A stretch of 17,078 bases of DNA from Prototheca cutis (Eukaryota; Chlorophyta; Trebouxiophyceae; Chlorellales; Chlorellaceae). The stretch covers positions 282,443 through 299,520 of the forward strand of contig BCIH01000012.1 of assembly GCA_002897115.2 (NCBI GenBank), given 5' to 3'. The position numbers were made by a program, and so were the translations under genes. The notes below the pieces were generated by a model. It saw nothing but the letters and a program-made list of their open reading frames with translations, ran no database searches and was not told the origin of the DNA. Positions 4 to 16,544 of the stretch are shown piece by piece; within the stretch, counting starts at the first letter, position 1; every line of letters begins with the position of its first letter.

Positions 4-53
4 CAGGTCAGGACCAGCCTTTCCCCCAGGTCAGGACCAGCCTTTCCCCAGGT
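4..53. repeat. 23-bp tandem repeat at window edge
   Basis: Two exact 23-bp copies (4-26 and 27-49) read CAGGTCAGGACCAGCCTTTC plus CCC, followed by the start of a third copy to 53. The array may continue beyond the window start. It overlaps the last codons and stop of the Fanzor-like remnant on the minus strand, so each unit re-encodes Gly-Lys-Gly-Trp-Ser followed by a stop. Confidence 0.85.
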
Positions 54-372
54 GGCGGATGTTGCACATACCATTAACGTCGCGGTTCCACGCCACGCCA
101 CAGCTCTGCCGCTTGCGGATCGCGTACTCGTTCCGGGCAGTGCTGCCGTTTGGATTGCGTGCAGTGCTGCTGCAGGACGGGCCACCGGAAGATCGGGTGG
201 CTGGAGCGCAACCACCAGAAGTACAAGCGGAAGAGCACGACCAGGCCAGACGCAGGTGCAGAGGCCCAGAAAGTGGTGGCGATGATGTTGCCTGTTGCTG
301 GCGAGCTTGATTCTGATCCCTAGATTGACCTGTCTTTGTATGTACAGTACTCCCCGTGATTCGACAAAACAA
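31..372 (-). pseudogene. C-terminal remnant of a Fanzor/TnpB-like nuclease
   Basis: The minus frame of 113 codons ends in a segment (about 55-132) containing RKRQSCGVAWNRDVNGMCNI. This resembles the second half of a TnpB/Fanzor zinc ribbon followed by RuvC-III (NRDxNxxxNI). The putative catalytic Asp codon is at 79-81. The complete Fanzor at 5274-8492 has the equivalent CGVVLNRDKNAARNI, so the match is internal to the window as well as to the family. Upstream in the frame (higher coordinates) I cannot identify RuvC-I, RuvC-II or a clean first cysteine pair, and the next 700 nt show no continuation. I read it as a decayed 3' end rather than a working gene. An exon whose upstream parts are too diverged to recognise is the alternative. 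Confidence 0.6.
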
Positions 373-1105
373 TGGGCAATCGAATGATGATGTGGAGGTA
401 CAAGACGAGATTTCCTCGCGGAATCAGCCCACCCAGCACCTGTTCTGGTGGGCTTAATCAATGGGCGACCCCACCTGAGCTCGGAGCTGGCGGCGCGTTT
501 GAAGAGTGCCAAGAGCCGCCGGCAGGGAAACCGACATAACTGCAGGGTCACAACTCCCATTTGTATCCCCTCCAATCGCCCACATCCTTCCATCATCTCG
601 ATTTCTGGGGTTGACAGGCGCTGTGAGGGCCTGCACGCGCGGCTTGGGGGCCCCCGTCACCGCAGCTGCGCAGTTCCCCAAGGTTAAAGGGCGATTGCCC
701 ACGAGCGTGCTCCTTCCTGGGCCTGCCCTGCTCGGAGACTGTGATCTTTGATGCGGAATAAACCTCCTCGCGCAGTCATACAAGGGAGTACTGCACGGGC
801 GCTGCACGGAAGGGTCCCCCTGGAGGCGATTGTGGGAAATCGGCGCATCACCGTTTTGTTCCTGCTGACAGGGGAGCACCCCCCCGAACGAGGACGCTAC
901 GCAGCCATCCCGGCCACAGATCGGCCTCAGTCAGGACACCCTCGGGTCACGCCTGATTCGGGAAATGGCATTGTTTGTGGTTTCTCCCTGTGGACAGGGG
1001 AGCACCTCCGCGAACTCCCCGCACGATGACGCTACACAAATACCTCTGGAAAAGACAACGGACATCACAAGCGGCTTCCTGGCACAGGAAGCGGGCGTGN
1101 CATGG
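373..1105. other. Intergenic region, no recognisable gene
   Basis: Reading frames up to about 140 codons occur on both strands, but none shows a domain or convincing protein composition. Visible structures are a hairpin at 426-454 (stem AGCCCACC/GGTGGGCT, 8 bp perfect, 13-nt loop) and an imperfect direct repeat, about 835-905 versus 961-1040, both containing GACAGGGGAGCACC and GACGCTAC. An N at 1100 marks a weak base call. Confidence 0.6.
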
Positions 1106-1128
1106 GGCGTCTTAGCTCAGCAGGGAGA
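1106..1128 (+). repeat. tRNA-Phe-like 5' fragment
   Basis: GGCGTCTTAGCTCAG followed by two changed bases and GGGAGA matches the 5' acceptor strand and D-arm of the tRNA-Phe gene at 8703-8775: 15 identical bases, 2 changed, 6 identical. The following bases cannot close the D-stem (GAAG instead of GAGC), and no anticodon arm or B-box follows, so it is not a functional tRNA. It lies antisense across the end of the minus-strand phosphatase-like frame and supplies that frame's TGA stop at 1117-1119. Confidence 0.6.
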
Positions 1129-4100
1129 AGTAGCATCCTGGAACGCCTTCACCTCGGCCNCGACGGTTTTCCACGCCTGACGCAGTGCATCCTTGGCCCG
1201 GGAACCTCGAGGCACGAGCTGCTCCANCGGNCTGNCCACGTTTGCACAGACGGCAGGGTCGCCTGGCTCGTACCGCCTCGCGAGCAGGAACACCGCGTGC
1301 CGGACCAGCAGCTCTGCCACCCGCAGGGCGCCCGCGTTCAGCGCTGTGCTCAGGGCGTCATCAAAGTGCAGGTCCCGCGTGGTGCCTGTGCGAGCGATGA
1401 TCTCCGCCCTGCAGCTGTCCCGGAGCACGTCGGGGGTGGCTGCACGCGGGAGCGAGAGGAGCTGCACCAGCAGGGCCATCACGTCCTCCTGGATCTGCCT
1501 GCCAGCGGCGCTCAGTCCTGCTGTCTGGAGCTCCCCGCACTTGCCGTCGCTGGGTAGCGATGGCGCCGCGCCGGCGGCGCCGGGGTTGCCGTGCGCCGGA
1601 CGGGAGGCGCCGGATCCGCCGCCCGCCCCATCGACGCTCACCGACTCGGTCTCTGCCGGCCGCGGGTCTGCCCCAGTCGACGCGGTCGACGGGCCGGGCA
1701 TTTGCACGGTTGGCGGGCGGCCGGCCTCGTCGCCGTGCGCCTCGCGAAACGACCCGTACCCGCCGAAGGCCTGGAGCGGCGCCAGCACGTCGTCCAGTCT
1801 CGCCGACAAGCGCCGAGCCTGCCATGCCGCCTCTTGCAGGGACCGGGGGTCCGCAGCATCGCCGTTCTCGTCCAATGCGGTGGACCGAACGACCTCGTGA
1901 TCCTCCAGGTCTCCCCAAGGAAGCCGCAGGCGCTCCGTGCGCAGGGCGCCGGACGCCGACATGCGCTTCAACACGTCGTCCACGCCCCTGCCGAACACCG
2001 CATCCAGGCGCGGCTCGGCGGCCACCAGGCGACGGAGTTCCCGCCGGCACGTCCCGATGACAACGCCCGCGGGGATTGCGTGCGCATCCCGCAGCATGGT
2101 CTGCAGCACCAGGGCCTTGTCAGGGCCCGGAGGTTTGGTGCCTTCACGGACCCCCTTTGCCGCCGGGGTCCTGGGTGCCCCCAGGTCCAGGGGCAGTTTC
2201 GCGATGTCGATCATGTGCAGGTGACCGAGTCGGCACTGCTCGTCGAGGTCGCTGACCGCCGCCTCCATGGTCACCACTCCAACACACGCGGCCTCGGGCA
2301 GCCGCATCAGGTGTCGGAACAGCGTCTGCCGGGGCGTCAGTTCTCGACCTTCGGGCGAAGGCCACACCACCGAATCCAACGCCAGCGCGGCGAACGCAAA
2401 CTCCCTCACAGCCCCCGACATCGCGGTCGTCAGCGTCCGAGGTGCCGCCCCTGGCCCCGTCATCGCCTGGACTCGGCCCGGCGGCGACGGCGCGCCGGGG
2501 AGCGGGCGCGGCGGCGGGGGCCCCAGGTCACGGGCCAGTTGTTGCCACCCCCCCAGTTCTTGGAGGACACGGCGCCAAGCAGTGTCGAGCGCCGCTCCGA
2601 TGTCGATACGCTGCCCCACTGGCTGGATGATCCTCACGATAACTGCGGGGTCTCCCAGCTCGTACCGGACTAGGTTCCCAAACACCGCGCTGGACATCGG
2701 CGGCGAGGCCTCCCGCAGCGCGCCCATCTGCACCGCGGCGTCGATGGCAGCGAAAACGCTTTGATGTCGCCGCAAGCGCCTGGTGGACTCCAAGGTCGCC
2801 GACGCCGGGCAGCAGACCGAATGCAGCGCAGCGCACCGCACCGTGTGCGGGCGTGGGAGCAGTTGGATCAGCAGGGTGACGACCTCCTCCTGCAGCCGCC
2901 GGCCAGCTTCGTGCAGGTGGGCATTCCGGTGCCACGGCACGGCCGGAGCGTGCAGCGGCTCGATTGGCGGTGGATCTTGCCTGCCAGCCCCATGCCCAGC
3001 GCCAGGCACTGGTCCCGAGTCGGTGCGGCTCGGTCGAAGTCCCAGCAACCTCTCCAACCGAGCTGTGAGCTCCTGCCGCTGCTGTGCGGTGTCAATGGTG
3101 TCCAGGGTGGCATCGGTTGCACCAGCCTCGGTGGGGCTGGCCAGTGGCACGGCCGGCGTGAGTAGCCGTGCGGTGTATTCGCCGCCGCTCGGCAGCCGCA
3201 ACCGCAGCGTCTCCTCCCGCACCGCGCCGGACGACACGAGCCGGTTCACAACCTGATCCACACCGTCAGCGAACAAATTCGACAGCACCTCTTGATGGCG
3301 CACCAGGTCGCAAAGCTCCGCCCGGCAAGCCCCGCCGCCTGTGTGCGTCACGAGCACAGCCGCGTCTAGGAGCACATCCCGCACCACCGACGCGTCTGCC
3401 GGGCCCACGGGGCTTCGTTCGCCCCCGTGGCGCCGGCCGGGAGCGCCGACTCGTGGGAGCAGCGACTGCACGTCCACCCCCCTTACGTGTACGTGCCGCA
3501 ATTGAAAGTCAAACGCGCCCACCGCAGCCTGTATGGCTGGCAGGCCAATCCGCGGTGCCAGGGGCAGCCGCATGAGGAGTTGGAGCAACGTCGGCTGGGC
3601 TGTGGGCTGCCGGCCGCCGGGTGCAGCCTGCGCCGCATTTCTGCGCGGCAACGCCCCATGCACAAACTCCCTCGCGACCTCGGTCACCGCGTCTGTGGGG
3701 TCCTGAGGAATCACCCGTCGGGGGACCGCCGGGGGCGCCAAACGGCCGGCTGTAGCGCCTCCAGGTGGCGGCTGGCCGCCCGAAGGAGCTCCTTCGGGCG
3801 GCGACCCGTCGCCAGGTTCGCCTTCTGTTGAGGGGCCCCGCGCGTCCGGCGGCAGGCAGACACGCGCCAGGCGGGCACTGATGTCTGCTGAACACTGTCG
3901 GAGGTCGGAGAGATGAGCGATTTCCAGAAGTGCATCCACGAGCTCCGGGATCGCACGATCGATGGCCCCGGAATCGCGCCGCCAAGCGGGCATGACGACC
4001 ACGTTGGCCTCCTCCCCGGGGGGGGCCTCGCGGGTCGAGCGATCCACAAGGAGCACGCTGTCCAACCGGGAAACATATCTAGCAAGTGGCTTGACGACGT

Positions 4101-4671
4101 CAGAGGAGTCGCCACCGGCCCGACTGGTCGCTGCGCCGGCGGTCCGGCCGGCCGTCGCAGCCGCGGGGACACGCCCGCCGCCAGCAGCGTGCGCCCCCCG
4201 TGCAACGCAATGCCGTCGCACGAGCACGACCTCAAGGGGCTGCTCTGGCGGGCTCCCCGGCGGGAGTATACCGGGGATGGCGTTCAGGCGGTCCAGGACA
4301 TCGACTAGGTACATCCTGACAACATCGAGCGGCCTGGAAGAGAAGATGCCAATGCGGTATGCCTGGGGCAACAAAAAAATGCGCTCCACCCCGGGGCGCA
4401 ACTCGATGCGGTACTGCTGCCCTGTGGCGTCCTGTATTCGCTCCAGCAGGACGCCGTCCAACTCAAACAGCACGATGGGCCGGTCGCCCGCAAGCGCACC
4501 CAGGCCATGCGGCCAGAGTGGCAGGACATACTGCGGTGCGAGGACAGAAGGGAGGCGTCGGCAATCAGGAATGCCGCACGACCAGGGGGACCCTGCCGGG
4601 AGCGCATACGGCATAGGGGCATAGGGGCATAGGGGCATAGGGGCATACAGCCACCGGTCAATGCTCCTCAT
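1117..4671 (-). CDS. FCP1/SCP-like (HAD) phosphatase-domain protein with two tandem C-terminal modules
   Basis: This is an uninterrupted 1184-codon frame. Residues about 65-240 resemble the FCP1/NIF (CTD phosphatase) HAD fold. A motif I-like PIVLFELDGVLL is followed by ELRPGVERIF, IGIFSSRP, VVKPLARYVSRLDSVLLVDRST, then an acidic-Pro stretch and an alpha-helical end. Known members use DxDx(T/V) in motif I; here the first Asp is Glu (codon 4462-4464), so phosphatase activity is doubtful. After a Pro/Gly-rich linker, two related modules of about 420 residues start near codons 332 and 753. They share VREFA/VHGAL, T-L-x(3)-LMRLP, DGV/RGVDxVLxRxxxSGA and GRxxQExVxxLLxQLL. I do not recognise the modules; the short helical blocks ending in GALR resemble winged helices only loosely. 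The first codons overlap an 8-bp repeat, and a CACCGCAG acceptor-like site near 4531 makes a spliced 5' end possible, so the start is uncertain. Ns at 1160, 1227, 1231 and 1235 leave codons undefined. Confidence 0.7.
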   Translation of the reverse strand: MRSIDRWLYAPMPLCPYAPMPYALPAGSPWSCGIPDCRRLPSVLAPQYVLPLWPHGLGALAGDRPIVLFELDGVLLERIQDATGQQYRIELRPGVERIFLLPQAYRIGIFSSRPLDVVRMYLVDVLDRLNAIPGILPPGSPPEQPLEVVLVRRHCVARGAHAAGGGRVPAAATAGRTAGAATSRAGGDSSDVVKPLARYVSRLDSVLLVDRSTREAPPGEEANVVVMPAWRRDSGAIDRAIPELVDALLEIAHLSDLRQCSADISARLARVCLPPDARGPSTEGEPGDGSPPEGAPSGGQPPPGGATAGRLAPPAVPRRVIPQDPTDAVTEVAREFVHGALPRRNAAQAAPGGRQPTAQPTLLQLLMRLPLAPRIGLPAIQAAVGAFDFQLRHVHVRGVDVQSLLPRVGAPGRRHGGERSPVGPADASVVRDVLLDAAVLVTHTGGGACRAELCDLVRHQEVLSNLFADGVDQVVNRLVSSGAVREETLRLRLPSGGEYTARLLTPAVPLASPTEAGATDATLDTIDTAQQRQELTARLERLLGLRPSRTDSGPVPGAGHGAGRQDPPPIEPLHAPAVPWHRNAHLHEAGRRLQEEVVTLLIQLLPRPHTVRCAALHSVCCPASATLESTRRLRRHQSVFAAIDAAVQMGALREASPPMSSAVFGNLVRYELGDPAVIVRIIQPVGQRIDIGAALDTAWRRVLQELGGWQQLARDLGPPPPRPLPGAPSPPGRVQAMTGPGAAPRTLTTAMSGAVREFAFAALALDSVVWPSPEGRELTPRQTLFRHLMRLPEAACVGVVTMEAAVSDLDEQCRLGHLHMIDIAKLPLDLGAPRTPAAKGVREGTKPPGPDKALVLQTMLRDAHAIPAGVVIGTCRRELRRLVAAEPRLDAVFGRGVDDVLKRMSASGALRTERLRLPWGDLEDHEVVRSTALDENGDAADPRSLQEAAWQARRLSARLDDVLAPLQAFGGYGSFREAHGDEAGRPPTVQMPGPSTASTGADPRPAETESVSVDGAGGGSGASRPAHGNPGAAGAAPSLPSDGKCGELQTAGLSAAGRQIQEDVMALLVQLLSLPRAATPDVLRDSCRAEIIARTGTTRDLHFDDALSTALNAGALRVAELLVRHAVFLLARRYEPGDPAVCANVXXPXEQLVPRGSRAKDALRQAWKTVXAEVKAFQDATSPC
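4612..4647. repeat. 8-bp tandem repeat (CATAGGGG)n
   Basis: Four exact CATAGGGG units (4612-4643) plus CATA. On the minus strand it reads CCCCTATG, so a candidate ATG recurs every 8 nt at the start of the phosphatase-like frame. Unit-number changes would shift the frame of any start upstream of it. Confidence 0.9.
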
Positions 4672-5273
4672 TCCTGGACTATTCCCATAGCGAGCCCGGA
4701 TGCGAGGCTGGTGTAGACTATCCTCCGGGATAGATCACCGGAATGTGCTGGCGGTTATGTCTCTCCAACAAGCACATACCTCGGTGGGCTGCCCGGTGAT
4801 GGCGCGCATAGGCGCCTGTGGTGTCGGGACCGCATTGCTACGCTCCAGGCCTGCACCCCTGACATTCGCCCAGCCATCATCGGCGATAAACTCCTCCTGG
4901 CCCTCTGCGAGTTCCGCGGGGTTGCCTTGGTCGGCGTCCATGGCAGTACGGGAGGACCCGCCACCGCGGACAGCCGGGATCGGTACGAAGCCCGGGCCTC
5001 AAGTTATCGCAGCGCGTGCGAGCACATCGACACCCCGCAAGCGGTGTCGGCCAATTGCAGAGCAATATAATGTATCCGTGCATTGCATTTGCATGCCAAA
5101 TGGGATTCCTAGGCGGCAATTGCATGGTCGCTTGACTGGTCACGTGGTGGTCGGGGTCTTGTCGGCACGACCGAGGCGATCGCCTCGGAAACCGGTCCGG
5201 AAGGGGCCTCGGCAACCAGAACAAGGGCTTGAACGTGCCAGACACACACCAGAATCAGTTTTCATCATCCACG
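4672..5273. promoter_or_regulatory. Divergent intergenic region with candidate promoter elements
   Basis: This 600-bp gap separates the minus-strand phosphatase-like gene from the plus-strand Fanzor and probably carries both promoters. On the Fanzor side there is CCAAT at 5051-5055, an AT-rich TATA-like ATATAAT around 5064-5070, a palindromic G-box CACGTG at 5141-5146 and an 18-bp palindrome at 5171-5188. G-boxes bind bZIP/bHLH factors in the green lineage; use here is inference. No convincing coding frame is seen. Confidence 0.4.
5171..5188. repeat. 18-bp perfect palindrome upstream of Fanzor
   Basis: CCGAGGCGATCGCCTCGG is its own reverse complement over 18 bp and ends 85 bp before the proposed Fanzor ATG. 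CCTCGG recurs at 5207-5212. It could be a dimer-binding operator, a cruciform, or part of an element end. Nothing in the sequence decides between these. Confidence 0.85.
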
Positions 5274-8200
5274 ATGCCGAAGCGCAAAAGAAAACTTTCG
5301 CCGAAGGGCAAAGCAAACGGTTCGGCGAACAGATGNAAGGGGGGGTCCGCGGACGCGTGCGGACGCCCCGCCACAGGCCCGGGAGTTGATGAAGTCGCAC
5401 CCACGGGTGGTGGCGGCGGCGGCCCCGGCGGCGACGGCGGCCCTCCCGAGGGAGGTGGCGGTGGGCCGGGCGGAGGCGGTGGGGCCCCGGGGGCCGCTTC
5501 ACCCCCGGGAGGGCGCCCCACCCCCGACGAGACGGTCCCACACGTGAACGCGGCCGGCACCTGTCGCACCACCAAGTGCGGGCTGCGTGACAGGGTGATG
5601 GGCTGCTATTATGCGGCGTTCACTCGTGTACTCAACGAAAAGGTGGAATTGCACACGGGAAACATGCACCTGGTCTCCCTTTTTGCGCTCCTCTTCACGC
5701 TGATCCACTTCCGTGAGGTTGATCTGGCGGAGCTGACCTCGTCGGAGATCTATTATGCGCTGCTGTACATGTTCGGGCAGAACAAGTACGGGGACGAGGG
5801 CCCGGACAACGAGAATGTGAGAGGCAAGTTGGCCAAGTTCATCGCGGGGAACTACCGATGGGTTGTGCGGCCGAAGCCTCACCAGCTACAAGATTGCCTC
5901 TACGCGGCAAGGAGGTACATGGCAGATGCCAACAAGCACATCAAGGACCACAAGCCGCTGGCCGCAAAAGCGGAGATGGCGGCAGCCATGAACGCATGCG
6001 GCATGCTCCAAGTCCACGCGGCCCGCATCGCTGCCAAGACATGGAATGCCATCGGAGACATGATCCGCCGCAACCGGGAGGCGGAGCGGGGCGCACAAGC
6101 CGGCCCCCCTCCCGGGGTCGGTGGCCTGGGGGACGCAGACGCCGACGAGGATGACCGCGACGAGGACCCCCCAGCCCGTTACCGCCACATCCGGCCGTTC
6201 GACTCCCAGGCGCTGGAGAGGATGATCCGGCAGATTGCCTCGGCACTTGGCCAGGACTGGGCCGGTATCGTCCCTGGCCTGGCTCAGGCCATCCGCGGTT
6301 GTGGCATGTATGTGCCGTCGCCGGTGACGGCTCCCATGACGCTCAACGAGCTTCCTGCCCGGGTGCGTGCGGCCTGGGCGACTGTCAGGGTTTGATTTGG
6401 TTTTGCCGGTGTGGGGCTCCGCGCATTCCCGATTCGGAGCAGGGGGCCGGTTGCAGGGCTCAGCACAGCCTGCTCCCACCGCAAACTGCCGCCGCTCCAC
6501 TCCCACAGGTCGGCGCCGCCGAGGCGGAAGCGGTTGCAATGCTGCCGGCCGAACGTCCTGCCCAGGTGTGTGTGTGGCCTGGGCGACTGGCGGGGTTTCT
6601 CTGGTTTGCCGGTGTGGAGCCACTGCGTTTGGGAGGGGCGTGATCCATGGGGCCTGAGTGCGTCACGGTGGCTTGAGGGTGCCACCCACCCGATTGGCGG
6701 GGCCAGCATGCCACGGACGTAACCGCACCCGCCGTCTTGCGACTGCACGACTGTTGCTTGATGCCCGCGTGATCTCTGCCCCCACCTCGCGCAGAACCCC
6801 CCCAACCAGGGCACGGGGAGCGGGCAAGTCGCCGTCCGAGTGCCAGCAGCGGCGCAACCCGGCCGGCGCAGTCGAAGGAGGGGGGGCAATCGGCGCCGCG
6901 GATGGAGCGGCGACTGGTGGGGCGCCCCCCCGCCTCGGGGCCCGGTGGAGATGACCATGCCCCCACGGCTCGACATGCTCGTGGCCGGCGATTCCAGCGG
7001 CGCGGTGCGTCTCGCGTACGAGCTGCGGGAGGCCTTTGAGAAGTGCAAGGAAGCAGGCCGGCCCGTGGCGCTGTCGGAGGCCGACTGGTGCGAGGTCAGC
7101 CGCCCGATCGCCGAAGCCGTGATGTGGCTGAGCTCGCAGCGAGACAAGCTGCGCCTCCTGTGCGAGGTCTCCAAGTTCCTGTGGGAGACGAGGCGGTTCA
7201 AGCAGGCGTTCACCGCGCTGCCGGTGTGCAAGTGGTCGGCGCGGCACATCACCATCGACACAAAGATCCTGTGGTACACGTGCCGGGAGGCGGGTATCCC
7301 CGTCGGCCCGCTGCCAGGCTTTCATGCCCAGGGGGTGGACGCCTGGCGAAGAGTGCTGAAGCTGGACGACGGCTGGTGCGAGCCGGGGGACTACCGCCCG
7401 GGGCGCACCAACAGACGGTTTCGAAGGTTTGCCAAGACCGACGGCGTGTCGCTGTGCCTTCTCTTCGACGTCCTGCGGCCGGCCGACGGCCAGGAGGCTG
7501 GCGGCGGCACGCAGCCGGCCGTCGCCGGCTTGTCCGAGGCCGTCAGGGAGGCCGCCAAAAGGAGACTGCTGAGCGGCGGCAGCATCCTGGGCATGGACCC
7601 CGGCCGCAAGGAGACCTGGACCTACAACGTTGACGACGTGGTGGGCCAGGACGGCGCGCTGTCCACCAGGCAGTTCGGCCACGAGGCGCACTACGGCAAC
7701 CATCGCTTCACCCACATCAAGCTCCTGCGCGACAACGGCCTGTGGCAGTTTGCCTGCAGGGTGCCGTCCCTCATGACCGGCCTGGCGCAGGGCGTGCGCG
7801 ACTACATCGCCTACATCTTCAGGCCCTTTGACGGCGATCGCTCGTGCTTCCAAGCCCTGCTCGACGTCACCTGCAGCACCGAGTGGAAGCGGGCCGCGTT
7901 CGACGTGCACATGAACAGATACAGAGCCATGGACGCCGCTATCAAGCGCATGGTCGACCACACCGGGCTCACGCCCCGGCAGCTGGTCGTCGCCATTGGC
8001 AACGCGAACTTCAGGCACAACTCACGCGGGCATCCACCGACCATCGGCTGGCGTCGCTGGGCCAAGCGCATGCGGGACATCCACGGGCTGCTGGTGATTC
8101 CTGTCAACGAATACAACACGTCGCAGGTGCTGCTGCGCTTGGGTGTGCGTGTGCGGGTGTCTTGTGGGATGCGAGCGTCGAGTGGGTGGGTTTAAGGCGC

Positions 8201-8492
8201 GCACGCAGCTGTGCACGCCAAAGAGTGCCCGCGGGCCATCGGTGACTCCCACCCCACCAGCCCCACACCGCAGGTTTGCTCGGCGTGCAATGCGGCACTG
8301 CGCCTGGGCGACTGCCCCACCGCCACGAACAAGCACTTTGTCCGGAAGTGCCAGAACGAGGCCTGCGGCGTCGTGCTGAACCGCGACAAGAACGCGGCGC
8401 GAAACATCTGCTACGTGGCCATGGGCCTGATCTTCAACAGAGTCCGGCCGGAGCCCTTCGACAAGCGGCTCCCGCCCCTGACCCGTGCCTGA
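5274..8492 (+). CDS. Fanzor, eukaryotic TnpB-like RNA-guided DNA endonuclease
   Basis: Spliced model: 5274-6362, optional 57-nt exon 6509-6565, 6951-8126, 8274-8492; all junctions are phase 0, giving about 827 or 846 residues. The ATG at 5274 opens with MPKRKRKLSPKGK, a strong nuclear localisation signal, then a Gly/Pro-rich linker with an N at 5336. The helical N-terminal region contains the LFALLFTLIHF and LQDCLY blocks. The third exon has the Fanzor signatures LPVCKWSARHITIDTKIL and RRFAKTDGVSLCLLF, then RuvC-I ILGMDPGRKET (Asp codon 7596-7598). The usual RuvC-II Glu position reads LVVAIGNANF, and the relocated Glu is in PVNEYNTSQ (codon 8109-8111). Splicing to the last exon joins this to VCSACNAAL and CQNEACG, completing a four-Cys zinc ribbon, then RuvC-III NRDKNAARNI (Asp 8385-8387). 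The family cuts DNA guided by a noncoding RNA, usually from the gene's 3' flank. All catalytic residues are present. The weakest part is the link between the first and third exons across 6363-6950. Confidence 0.85.
6320..6640 (+). repeat. Direct duplication spanning exon end and intron start in the Fanzor gene
   Basis: About 6339-6410 and 6540-6620 are related copies about 204 bp apart. Both carry CCTGCCC(G/A)GGTG, GGCCTGGGCGACTG, then a GGGTTT, TTTGCCGGTGTGG block. Each has a donor-like GGTG(C/T)GTG after CCTGCCC. The second copy is preceded by an acceptor CTCCCACAG (6500-6508), which defines a possible in-frame 57-nt exon. Either an exon end was duplicated into a new mini-exon, or the second copy is just intronic. 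Confidence 0.6.
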
Positions 8493-8522
8493 ACATTCAC
8501 ATGCATTTCACCACTGATCCAC

Positions 8523-8594
8523 CGAGCAGCTCGTCTGCTCGCTCGGCGCGTGCACCCGCGCCGGGGTTCCCTTTTTCCTGCATTCGCTGGGAAC
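8523..8594 (+). ncRNA. Candidate Fanzor guide RNA scaffold (three tandem hairpins)
   Basis: Starting 31 nt after the Fanzor stop there are three consecutive hairpins. One is CGAGCAG/CTGCTCG (8523-8529 with 8535-8541, 5-nt loop). The second is GGCGCG/CGCGCC (8545-8550 with 8557-8562, 6-nt loop). The third is GTTCCC/GGGAAC (8566-8571 with 8589-8594, 17-nt loop). Known Fanzor f/omega RNAs are transcribed from the 3' end and 3' flank of the nuclease gene. Position and structure fit; no expression, RNA end or guide segment can be read here. Alternative: ordinary 3'-UTR structure in GC-rich DNA. Confidence 0.4.
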
Positions 8595-8690
8595 TGGGAA
8601 ATTCTATGGGGGTACCGCCCGCCCGGTCTCTTAGATTGCAAGAGCAACCAGCGGGGGGTACTTCTGTAAGCCGGGAGAGAAAACTGATGC

Positions 8691-8695: not shown

Positions 8696-8702
8696 GAGTG
8701 AG

Positions 8703-8775
8703 TGGCGTCTCCGCGGATCGAACGCGGGACCTCAGCATCTTCAGTGCCGCGCTCTCCCATCTGAGCTAAGACGCC
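8703..8775 (-). tRNA. tRNA-Phe (anticodon GAA)
   Basis: The minus strand folds as a complete 73-nt cloverleaf. Acceptor GGCGTCT pairs with AGACGCC with discriminator A; D-stem GCTC pairs with GAGC. The anticodon stem CGGCA/TGCTG encloses loop CTGAAGA, giving anticodon GAA (Phe). T-arm CCGCG-TTCGATC-CGCGG is perfect. A-box (TAGCTCAGATGG) and B-box (GTTCGATCC) promoters are internal, there is no intron, and CCA is not encoded, all as in eukaryotic nuclear tRNAs. A T-run follows. It lies tail-to-tail between the Fanzor gene and the N-terminal Fanzor relative. Confidence 0.95.
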
Positions 8776-12490: not shown

Positions 12491-13776
12491 ATGGGCAGCG
12501 CACAGTCCGTCGAAAAGCGAATTGAAGACTGTTCCAAACGCAATGATCATCTCGAGTTGCGGGTAAGATTCTTGCATGCTGAAGGCTTTGCCGGTGTTTC
12601 GGTCGACTCGCGGTAGGGCTCGGGGCTGGGGCCCCCGCTTGCATGCCCTGCGCACCGGAGATTCGCGAGCCCCCTTCATGGTACCACCTGCACGCCCCTC
12701 TCCACGCATGCACAGGATCTTCTGAACGATATTCGAAGCAGGGATCCGAACTTTGAGCGCAACAAGGGCAGGTACTTGGATTTCTGCACTCCTGGTGGTG
12801 CCACGCCGCTGGTCCTAGCCTCACAGCGGGGATGCCTCCAAGCGGCGGAAGTGGTACGCGGCGTGGGCCCCTTGCCTCTGGGTGGTTTATTTGCACAGTG
12901 GCTTGTTGTTTCTCTGCACGTCTTCATGCTTGAATCAATTGCTGCCGCGGTCGCCAGGGGTCCCCCTCGCACATGGACCATGCCCCGTCCACATTCTTTA
13001 CCATGCACTCCAGTCAAAATCCCCCCCCCCCCCCCAAACACACACACAAAACACAAAACACGCACATACACAGCTCATCTCGGCGGGGGCAGATGTGCAG
13101 CAGGTCTGCCCGCAGCTGGAAGGCAACAGCGCGCTGCATGAGGCCGTGGCCCGGAAGCAAGATGCCATGGTGGACTCCCTCCTCCGGGCGGGGGCCAACC
13201 CCTTTGTGGAAAATGCCAAAGGCGAGTGATGAGTTGTTGAAATTTGTTGGAAGAGGGGAGCAGGACCGGAAGGTGGATTGAGACAACAACTTGCACACAC
13301 ACCCACAAGTACAGAAGCGGGGGGGAAAACCCCAAAACATCGCCGACGAAGCAGGTTTCACGGCGATGGACTTTGCGTGCGCCAAGAAGAACGTGACGGT
13401 GCTGCGTCGGCTGGAGCAGGGTGCCCCCTTCAAAGGCTGGCTCTATGTCAAGACCGCGACGTTTGCGGGCCTCACGCGCGAGTGGAAGCGGCGGTGGTGC
13501 GTGGTGTGCCACCGGTACCCCTACCCGCGCGGCCCGCCGCAGGGCCGCCTGATCCACGTCGTGTTTGTGGCGTACCGGGACACCTCTTCCGTCGGCCCCG
13601 CCTGCCGCGTCTGGCTGGACGGCGCGACGGCCGTGCCCATGCGCTCGACGGGCGCCGAGGCACGTCTGCGGGGCTCGGGCCCCGCGCAGGCCGCGCTCCG
13701 ACTCCACCCCCGGCATGAGGTGCCTGCGGGGGCCTACACCACGGGCTACGCAGGGCAACAGCTCACCATGTACCTC

Positions 13777-13827
<51 letters not shown>

Positions 13828-15547
13828 GGGGGGGGAGATTGTTGGGGCATGGGTCGGAATTGTTCGTTGTTTCCTTTCATGCACCGCTACTGCGTTTCTT
13901 TGTCCTATGCTGGGTCTGGCTCGTGTGATTGCCGGAAAGCTCCAATACCCTTCGCATCTCTCCCACCAAATCAAGCTGCAACGATGACATCATCCCCCCC
14001 CCACCCACCCCCTCCAGGCCTGATTTCGGGGACCAAAGCGCGCTGGATGCGTTTGCCTACTTTATCGCGCTGGTCAATAACCGGGGCGTGCCGCCGGCGT
14101 CGATGGGCACCACGCTGGCAGGCACGGGCGAAGGTCGCCTTGCCGACCGTCCGGGAGGTGAGGGTGTGTGGAGCGTGAAGACTGCGGGAATGGTATCCGG
14201 TTGGATGCGCTTTCTCGTGCTTGCTCTTCTGTACTCTTTTTTATGGGTGCATGTCGCAGTGTGGGTGCTGGCACACCCACCGACAGTCCACACACACATA
14301 TTTTCTTCCTCCTCAACACCCCCCCCCAAAACACAAACATATACAGAGATGGAGTGGTCTGCCCGGCCGGCGACTGATGAGGAGCTCGCGCGGCGTCTGC
14401 AGGCTGAGGAGGACTCGGCGTACGCCGCGCGGCTGGCCAGCGAGCAGCAGCTGGTCGCGCCGCCGACGTCGGCGCCGGGGTCGGCGACCAGTAGTGCCAG
14501 TGGGTGGGCGAGCACGTTTGGCCCCGGCGGCGTCCGGCCGCCGTCGATCCAGGGCTCCGGCGCATCGTTCTACCCGGCCATCGACTATGAGCGCCGACAC
14601 AACGACGCTTCGCCGGGGCGGCGGCCGTCGGTAAATTCTGTCGGCTCTGCTCCGTCCACGCTGGCGGGGCCGCTGGGCTCCTCTGCGCTCGTCGCGGCGG
14701 CGACTGCTGCTGGTGGTGGGTCGGGCACCGCGCCGTCCTCGTCGACACCGCCGCCGCCGGCGCCGGTGCTGCAGCAACCTGATGGCACGACTGCCGCGGC
14801 AGAGGCCTCGCCGCCGCTCATCTCCGTGGATGCCTCGCCGCCCCCCCAGAGCGGCGGCGGCGCCGACGGAAACTGGTGGACCATGTTTGCTTCCTCTCCC
14901 ACCGGCGTCCAGGCACCAGACGCCGCCGCCGGGCCAGCCACCGCGACGCCAGTGGCCGCTGCGCCGGCGACCGCTGCGAATGTCGGGCGACCGCCGACGG
15001 AGCAGTTGGCGACGGGGCCACCCCCACCGAGCACCGTGGCGGCCGCTGCCCTGCAGCCGCCGCCGCCGACGCCGCCGCCGACGGGCAGCGGGGGCGTCAG
15101 TGCCTCGGCCTCGGTTAGTGGAGGCGGCGAAGACGAAGAGGGCATCTGCGTGGTCTGCCTGGAGAACCCCGCAACCGCGGGCTTCCTGCACGGCGACTCG
15201 TGAGTGTTGGGGGGCTGCATTGCATTCCTTTGTGCCCCGTTTGTACTGCACAGCTTGGCAACTTTGCAGTCGGTGCAGGGGCATGACATGACACGACACG
15301 ACACGACACACAAGGGTGATGCATGCATGTATCGAGACCTATTCGTTGGCCCACACCAATACTGACGATGTAACTGCCCCCCCCAAACNCCCCCCCCCCC
15401 AAAAAATATAAATAAACACATAAATAATAATGCAGGGTGCACCGGTGCTGCTGCCGTGCGTGCGCGCAGCATCTCAAGGACTCGGGCGTTCGGCTGTGCC
15501 CCATGTGCCGCCAGCCCATCCAGAGCTTTGTCATGAACGTCTACTGA
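12491..15547 (+). CDS. XBAT34/35-like E3 ubiquitin ligase (ankyrin, PH-like, RING)
   Basis: Seven exons: 12491-12562, 12716-12853, 13074-13221, 13355-13778, 14018-14157, 14347-15199, 15436-15547; the spliced length of 1887 nt gives 628 residues with all phases closing. It starts MGSAQS, a consensus N-myristoylation signal. Ankyrin repeats at about 45-140 read GGATPLVLASQRG, LISAGADV, NSALHEAVARKQ, LLRAGANP and GFTAMDFACAKK. A PH-like domain follows (about 145-260: FKGWLYVKT, REWKRRWCVVC, VVFVAYRD). An acidic helix DEELARRLQAEEDSA is UIM-like. A Pro/Ala/Gly-rich linker leads to a RING at about 574-622. The RING is C2H2C4: CVVC, H-x4-H-x3-C-x2-C, CPMC. The order matches plant XBAT34/35-type ligases, which transfer ubiquitin from an E2 to targets bound by the ankyrin part. 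Substrate and location are unknown; membrane attachment is inferred from the myristoylation site. Confidence 0.8.
13021..13035 (+). repeat. C15 run near the 3' end of intron 2
   Basis: Fifteen C followed by an A/C-rich stretch ends at the CACATACACAG acceptor (exon from 13074). Comparable C-runs precede the acceptors of the later introns: 13994-14014 (interrupted), 14319-14327, and 15377-15400 with an N at 15389. They probably act as the polypyrimidine tract. Confidence 0.7.
13222..13354 (+). other. Predicted GC-AG intron in the E3-ligase gene
   Basis: The donor is AAAG|GCGAGT, close to the GC-donor consensus, and the acceptor is GAAGCAG. Using these two sites rejoins NAKG to FTAMDFACAKK in phase 1 and gives an unbroken ankyrin repeat. 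The nearby GT sites (13206, 13226) cannot reach an acceptor in the correct phase without breaking the repeat. Confidence 0.65.
13779..13835 (+). repeat. (GT)15(GA)9(G)9 compound microsatellite at a splice donor
   Basis: The repeat begins exactly after CTCAG at the exon 4 end, so the first GT of the microsatellite is the predicted 5' splice site of a 239-nt intron. The run is 30 nt GT, 18 nt GA, then 9 G. Confidence 0.9.
15286..15312 (+). repeat. Pentamer repeat (GACAC)n
   Basis: GACAT followed by four GACAC units and AC, inside the last intron of the E3-ligase gene. Confidence 0.85.
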
Positions 15548-16005: not shown

Positions 16006-16544
16006 TCACAGGTAAAACTTGAGCCTGGTGTCGGTGCGCATGGCCCGAAACACGGCCAGGACTTGGTCTGGGTCTCGGACCGGTACCGGCCCGATGGAGA
16101 CTGCGACATACTTTCCTCCCGTCGACAGCCGTTGGCTGACGAGCGTCGGCGGCACGGGCTGCCCCAGCGTCGACTCCACGCACGCCGTCATGGCCTGCGC
16201 AAAGGCGCCACCGCCGCTGCCGATGGCCTTGAACAGCCGCGTGCCGGGGTATGTGTTCACCTGCGAGCGAGGCGTGGCGAGGAGGACAGACAGGTGTTGA
16301 CTTTGGCAATGCACCTGGATTCCTCGTGGGCTGGTCCGTGTGCTCAGCCGAGGTAACAAAAGCGTTCAGCACAGAATCAAGATCCCTGCACCCAGCATGC
16401 GGCCAGAAACCAGAGCATTCTAAAAACTGAGAGCAAGCCGCCAGCATACCTCGGCGTCCACCGCTCGCCACTTGGCCTCGTCGTCGAGTGCATTCAGGGA
16501 AGCCTGGGCCTTTCCTAGGGAAGCGCTATCAGCACTGGGCCCAT
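16006..16544 (-). CDS. DUF493/YbeD-like protein, C-terminal exons
   Basis: The last exon (16260-16006) reads VNTYPGTRLFKAIGSGGGAF, then SQRLSTGGKYVAVSI, DPDQVLAVFRAM and ends LKFYL-stop. These match the DUF493 (YbeD-like) fold: YP-x-FKxIG at the start, SxGGxYxSxxV in the middle and a short hydrophobic C-terminus. The preceding exon ends DEAKWRAVDAE at a GAG|GTATGC donor (exon edge 16450), with a 189-nt phase-0 intron ending CTCGCAG. The 5' limit of this second exon is uncertain. GCGCGCAG at 16545-16552 is one acceptor option; the frame is open further up to 16704, and first exons (perhaps with an organelle transit peptide, as in plant relatives) may lie beyond. The family is a small ferredoxin-like fold of unclear, possibly regulatory, role. 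Confidence 0.7.

Follow-up and report, generated by a model that had tools for sequence, protein, structure and literature searches.

The locus analysed here raises the question of whether an intact-looking Fanzor gene still belongs to a transposon and whether shorter relatives of that transposon could supply guides for its nuclease. The window (the whole 17,078-nucleotide stretch that was analysed) carries on its plus strand, at 5274 to 8492, a gene that an earlier sequence-only reading had described as an intact, intron-bearing Fanzor of a probable green alga. We found that the gene is almost certainly a Fanzor1; Fanzors are eukaryotic relatives of CRISPR nucleases, and this gene adds a good example to a kind already known and is nothing unheard of. 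The best overall explanation, to which we give a probability of about 0.6, is a Fanzor1 nuclease of a DNA transposon with long relatives and short derivatives in the same genome (19.9 Mb, 23 contigs).

A three-exon Fanzor1 gene

The gene model has three exons, all with lengths that are multiples of three and no internal stop, separated by GT-AG introns, and its product has 879 or 888 residues. Exon 1 (5274 to 6362; 363 codons in an open frame, with an alternative end at 6389) encodes a basic, nuclear localization signal (NLS)-like N terminus, MPKRKRK (block MPKRKRKLSPKGK at 5274), and is homologous in frame to the related loci L012, L014, L015, and L016 (35 to 41% amino acid identity) and more weakly to L011 (29 to 33%); a single N at 5336 leaves one residue unread. 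Intron 1 (6363 to 6794, GTGCGT...GCGCAG) has an alternative donor in the same phase, GTTTGA at 6390. L011, L012, and L014 have the donor GTGCGT in the corresponding position, and L011, L012, L014, and L016 have an acceptor CAG; by sequence comparison, GTGCGT at 6363 is most likely the donor rather than GTTTGA. Inside intron 1, at 6390 to 6620, an imperfect second copy of the exon 1 end and splice donor (CTGCCCAGGTGTGTG...) was spotted by eye.

Exon 2 (6795 to 8126, 444 codons) contains the HITIDT block (7245 to 7262), the TDGVS block (7437 to 7451), and the RuvC-I motif GMDPGR (7590 to 7607) with its catalytic Asp at 7596 to 7598 (D631 or D640). The alternative Glu of RuvC-II lies at 8109 to 8111 (VNEYNTSQ; E802 or E811), just before the zinc ribbon. 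Given the base composition and with frames chosen beforehand, the chance that 444 random codons contain no stop is about 8e-6. The junction across intron 2 (8127 to 8273, GT...AG, 147 bases) joins NEYNTSQ to VCSACN and matches that of L011 and L012, where the intron is GC-AG; a metagenome protein, P0002, reads through it. Exon 3 (8274 to 8492, 72 codons plus stop) encodes a CX2C...CX4C zinc ribbon (CSAC at 8277 to 8288, CQNEAC at 8349 to 8366) and the RuvC-III motif NRDKNAARNI (8379 to 8408), whose catalytic Asp is at 8385 to 8387 (LNRDK; D845 or D854). The splicing pattern is a supported prediction made from sequence alone.

Most of what the sequence-only reading had said of the gene stood. 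The NLS and the HITIDT, TDGVS, GMDPG, and NRDKNAARNI blocks all lie where it had placed them, within one gene model, and the exons are free of stops and frameshifts, as it had claimed. A four-Cys zinc ribbon is present, but its second pair is CX4C, not CX2C. RuvC-I and RuvC-III were correctly recognized, and the RuvC-II Glu had been left unnamed.

Its assignment to Fanzor also held, on the matches given below and on the D/E/D active-site residues being in place. Exon 2 matched P0002 at 59% identity (E 2.4e-148) and aligned in frame with genomic paralogues at 43 to 56% identity, so that chance resemblance is excluded. Exon 3 matched PF07282 TNB, but under its cutoff of 26.3 bits (E 5.1e-5, 23.8 bits); P0002 scored above that cutoff (33.4 bits), and an NCBIfam search returned only sub-threshold TnpB matches. 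Kinship was established through profile A3, which reaches proven Fanzor1 proteins through intermediate relatives and matched GtFz1 (2.8e-53), SpuFz1 (2.4e-46), and PpFz1 (3.6e-29), with the GMDPGR motif of the gene placed opposite the DP motif that GtFz1 and SpuFz1 carry. A point that weighs the other way is that profile A1, whose rows come only from the window, paralogues, the repeat B described below, and P0002, gave PpFz1 an E value of only 0.44 and had a mimivirus Fanzor2 as its best match (2.8e-9).

A DPG motif and a shifted Glu are given as the definition of Fanzor1 (PMC10711439), and three Fanzor1 structures have been reported (PMC11423790). The window protein has DPG in RuvC-I, a Glu that precedes the zinc ribbon by six residues, and RD in RuvC-III, and a RuvC/TNB fold of the Fanzor type is predicted for it. 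Protein length likewise points to Fanzor1, not Fanzor2, as do the proteins that profile A3 matched best. A first structure model of P0002, built from 10 rows, was poor (pLDDT 37.5) and was set aside.

Long relatives and a possible partner frame

With the exon 2 protein as the query, 47 stretches of the genome matched, and the greater part of each half of exon 2 was found at 10 loci: the window, C12:583k, C2:2203k, C8:792k, C1:536k, C5:1143k, C6:534k, C3:1018k, C7:277k, and C12:431k. Six of these (L011 to L016) make up family A, whose copies are mostly 86 to 94% identical in DNA over long stretches (L013 lacks an exon 1 match) and share the right end ...GTACCCCACC, beyond which the flanks are unrelated. 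The two ends of one family A locus lie about 5.6 kb apart. The ratio of nonsynonymous to synonymous change (dN/dS) over exon 2 within family A was 0.40 to 0.53 (four pairs from four A loci). At L014 (C5:1142886-1144999), exon 2 of the family A Fanzor has a 616-base internal duplication whose copies are 97.6% alike.

Facing away from the window Fanzor is a long open frame on the minus strand (1117 to 4734; 1,205 codons, containing N), possibly a partner gene. Its N-terminal 278-amino-acid piece (3901 to 4734) came near the NIF phosphatase profile PF03031 (E 3.5e-4; 20.7 bits, cutoff 21.8), a Pfam search with the whole frame gave nothing at 0.1, and a PDB sequence search gave nothing credible (best E 0.012). 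The frame has long relatives on C9 and at C7:280354-283806, where the relative points away from the C7 Fanzor. Shorter stretches related to the frame occur at C12:586k, C8:789k, C5:1140k, and C6:531k, in each case upstream and on the opposite strand. Such relatives stand beside Fanzor at 6 of the 10 loci, the window counted (45 of 91 candidate places were scored), and window positions 4147 to 4585 and 4760 to 4911 are collinear with family A. We infer that the frame may have a role in movement or regulation. It also offers a concrete starting point for finding the other functions that the autonomous element requires. At C9:370849-382900, several long relatives of the frame stand on one strand within 12 kb, and among the exon 2 matches listed, none is on C9.

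Near the far end of the partner frame of the intact Fanzor, the window also contains an internally deleted family A element (29 to 799, minus strand) consisting of the A left end and a fragment of Fanzor exon 3. By blastn to locus s15, its positions 799 to 186 correspond to 1761-2358, 187 to 133 correspond to 3188-3244, and 146 to 29 correspond to 6994-7112.

Short elements with transposon ends

When the Fanzor gene was used as a DNA query, some thirty places matched over exon 3 alone. The first 12 loci of this kind to be inspected (L017 to L028) all lacked matches to other parts of the gene within about 4 kb, and each is a copy of a repeat of 1.5 kb, B. From 92 candidate places for B, 40 were scored, which yielded 42 matching stretches at 40 places, and the ends of the 40 aligned loci are abrupt. 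Eight of the 40 copies had no scorable end; in the other 32, an exact 9-base target duplication was found in 7 and one with at most one mismatch in 17, while 12 had at least three mismatches. When left and right flanks of different B copies were paired as a control, 0.9% of 992 pairings reached at most one mismatch. Base counts were taken from the remaining 20 copies, and G immediately precedes the duplication in 15 of these, with a one-base shift of register possible in some rows. As inverted repeats, the B ends match at 9 to 10 of 16 bases (four copies), which is little for GC-rich ends. Exon 3 of B is 83% identical to the window in DNA over 291 bases, the end of intron 2 included, and its translation and the end of P0002 share 90% identity; the matches in this genome included no full-length B Fanzor.

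In a second short type, A-short, the A left end is fused to the final part of exon 3 with the A tail. For the A left end, 40 of 125 candidates were scored and gave 40 matches; for the A right end, the same was true of 40 of 101. Eleven left-right pairs are 1.80 to 1.89 kb long, and a few others are longer or shorter. Four of the 11 have exact duplications of 8 to 11 bases at their ends (e.g., CGTTTGACC and CGTGATGGG), and 2 more have one-mismatch duplications by eye, which was also how the A ends were judged as inverted repeats. The target duplication of about 9 bp, a MuDR-like trait, was observed in the short elements only. Allowing at most two mismatches, the A right-end pattern occurs 71 times, full-length and short copies together, versus 3 times for the reversed pattern; the B right-end pattern occurs 31 times versus 0.

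Could the short copies supply guides?

Ghost loci have the ends of an element and, on the right, an omegaRNA region, but no Fanzor gene; A-short carries both ends together with the A tail. For two A tails, the predicted fold is very good (z −4.2 and −5.0) and extends to the end bordering the host flank. Several results weigh against a guide function. Covariation in the A tail did not exceed that of shuffles (26 sequences, 90% mean identity), and the A-short tail is scarcely better conserved than the sequence preceding it (0.884 versus 0.874; 45 pairs from 10 copies), so that the extra conservation sought there was not found. Along a single A-short pair, identity was 0.921, 0.825, and 0.849 in the body and 0.865 in the tail. 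The B tail, of which one copy was folded, was less stable than its shuffles (z +2.06). Coding constraint on B exon 3 was rejected in 37 copies (L066 to L068, in which all or part of exon 3 is missing, were left out): minor-base fractions by codon position were 0.065, 0.061, and 0.052, the variants comprised 30 silent versus 60 replacement changes, and 4 of the 37 copies combined a multiple-of-three length with no stop. From folding, covariation, conservation, and coding data together, it is therefore plausible for A-short, and weakly indicated for B, that the copies are ghost loci by anatomy.

The short repeats might instead be ordinary non-autonomous transposons with a piece of Fanzor kept by chance or captured, the exon 3 piece having no role and no guide RNA being made. 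We regard this as a serious competitor, if slightly short of an even bet: the unconstrained B exon 3, the poorly folding B tail, and the near-equality of A-short tail and neighbor are in its favor, whereas the Fanzor 3′ end is kept by two separate families, A-short and B, and the A-short tail is the one that folds well, to the element end, in full-length A copies. It also has to contend with the ghost loci of Spizellomyces, which yield working omegaRNAs (PMC10432273).

The window copy and rival readings

The 3′ tail of the window gene (8493 to 8624, plus strand) is a candidate omegaRNA scaffold that would include the right end of the element (GGGGGTACCGCCCGCCC|GGTCTCTT). That end is predicted at 8624 by analogy with family A (...GTACCCCACC|). 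The structured 3′ region claimed by the sequence-only reading received modest support: 8490 to 8624 folds at −50.9 kcal/mol (z −2.43), and 3 of 200 shuffles were as stable. A search of the window for a further copy of this right end, on either strand, found none, and Rfam at gathering thresholds found only a tRNA in the window.

On our reading, the gene encodes a Fanzor1 RNA-guided DNA nuclease that belongs to, or derives from, a DNA transposon. Drawing on the Fanzor literature, we suggest that the protein would enter the nucleus and bind an omegaRNA made from the 3′ tail of the element, the adjoining host flank serving as guide. It could then cut DNA matching that flank, for example, an empty insertion site, and repair would copy the element back in; some transposase would move the families. 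That the window copy itself still works by this route seems to us about an even chance. Several observations weigh against the transposon explanation or against a working copy: no convincing target duplication was found among direct repeats of at least 8 bases around the window copy, its left end was not found, and dN/dS between the window and family A was 0.76 to 0.83 over exon 2 (three pairs, a simple counting method, variable linkers included) and 0.54 over exon 3 (0.67 against one B copy). The MULE transposase PF10551 had 0 matches in the genome, where introns or other clades could conceal one.

The lack of a target duplication and the exon 2 dN/dS would suit an intact-looking relic, a once-mobile Fanzor stripped of its element ends, with a protein that has ceased to be expressed or guided, as would the duplicated donor-like stretch in intron 1 and the fact that, over exon 2, the sole close DNA match in the genome is a fragment on C7 (L010; 84% over 414 bases). 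A relic is nevertheless unlikely, given 879 codons in three exons with no stop and one codon unread, the improbability of 444 open codons, and the retention of every catalytic residue. Less likely still is that the gene was kept by the host, or stands alone as one of its genes, and serves some purpose apart from spreading the element. The window Fanzor is the single long copy of its type, it has no detected target duplication, and some Fanzor loci apparently lack inverted repeats (PMC10432273); it retains, however, the divergent frame and the collinear upstream sequence of mobile family A, and because of these it looks like part of an element.

The transposon explanation has a more elaborate form, a two-gene cassette in which Fanzor1 and a divergent, weakly NIF-phosphatase-like mover or regulator of more than 1,000 amino acids would serve ghost elements throughout the genome in trans, with tails as guides and the G before the B duplication as part of the target-adjacent motif; we consider this improbable as a whole. 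A Fanzor, its long siblings, and short end-bearing copies together in a compact genome form a test bed for the maintenance of transposons in trans through ghost omegaRNAs.

Host and neighboring genes

The green-alga origin proposed by the sequence-only reading fits the SBP-box matches in the genome (10 stretches, best E 2.4e-30), a family with matches in 0 of 14 control genomes and, to our knowledge, confined to green plants and green algae. No match to the light-harvesting family PF00504 was found in the genome, in a search whose control matched only in a cyanobacterium; the host is therefore probably a colorless green alga such as Prototheca.

Past the Fanzor element, about 80 bases from its predicted right end, lies a tRNA-Phe (GAA) gene (8702 to 8775, minus strand). 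Further on are a probable multi-exon gene with an ankyrin repeat (12819 to 15203, plus strand; PF00023, E 1.8e-5), in which a PH match fell below the cutoff and the impression of a RING-like end was not backed by Pfam, and a DUF493 domain (16006 to 16365, minus strand; PF04359, E 1.2e-15). Relatives, short copies, and the divergent partner frame had gone unmentioned in the sequence-only reading.

Comparison with known systems

Among the papers listed by our literature searches, we found no detailed account of such elements in the Prototheca group, most subscription papers lying outside the scope of those searches. In the related alga Auxenochlorella UTEX 250-A, a Fanzor-coding element is reported as the most abundant repeat and described as uncharacterized (PMC12633428); this comparison is by description only. 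Among green algae, Chlamydomonas reinhardtii has the Fanzor1 elements CRe-1, CRe-2, and CRe-3 (CRe-1 with five exons), nearly all derivatives of which retain the 3′ end (PMC3627910), as the copies here do. Unlike these, which have Helitron2 ends and duplications of variable length, the elements described here are two-ended, of near-constant length, and flanked by duplications of about 9 bp. In that last respect, they resemble the fungal MuDR-like Fanzor1 elements ROr-4, PBl-3, and MCi-4 (PMC3627910), which have 9-bp target duplications and carry no MuDR transposase; the terminal inverted repeats of the fungal elements are clear, whereas in this alga the ends of four B copies match at 9 to 10 of 16 bases.

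A close parallel is Spizellomyces punctatus, with 42 Fanzor loci and 134 ghost loci whose omegaRNAs work in human cells (PMC10432273). Like the SpuFz1 elements and ghost loci as described there, the present families combine a Fanzor1 having a shifted Glu with short loci that share its right end and outnumber the Fanzor loci, and no transposase was found within the element ends. They differ in that SpuFz1 is a single frame and the window Fanzor has two introns, and in the target duplications of about 9 bp and the divergent partner frame of this genome. Moreover, unlike the ghost loci of Spizellomyces, the short copies in this genome retain a portion of the coding sequence, and they are known purely as DNA sequence.
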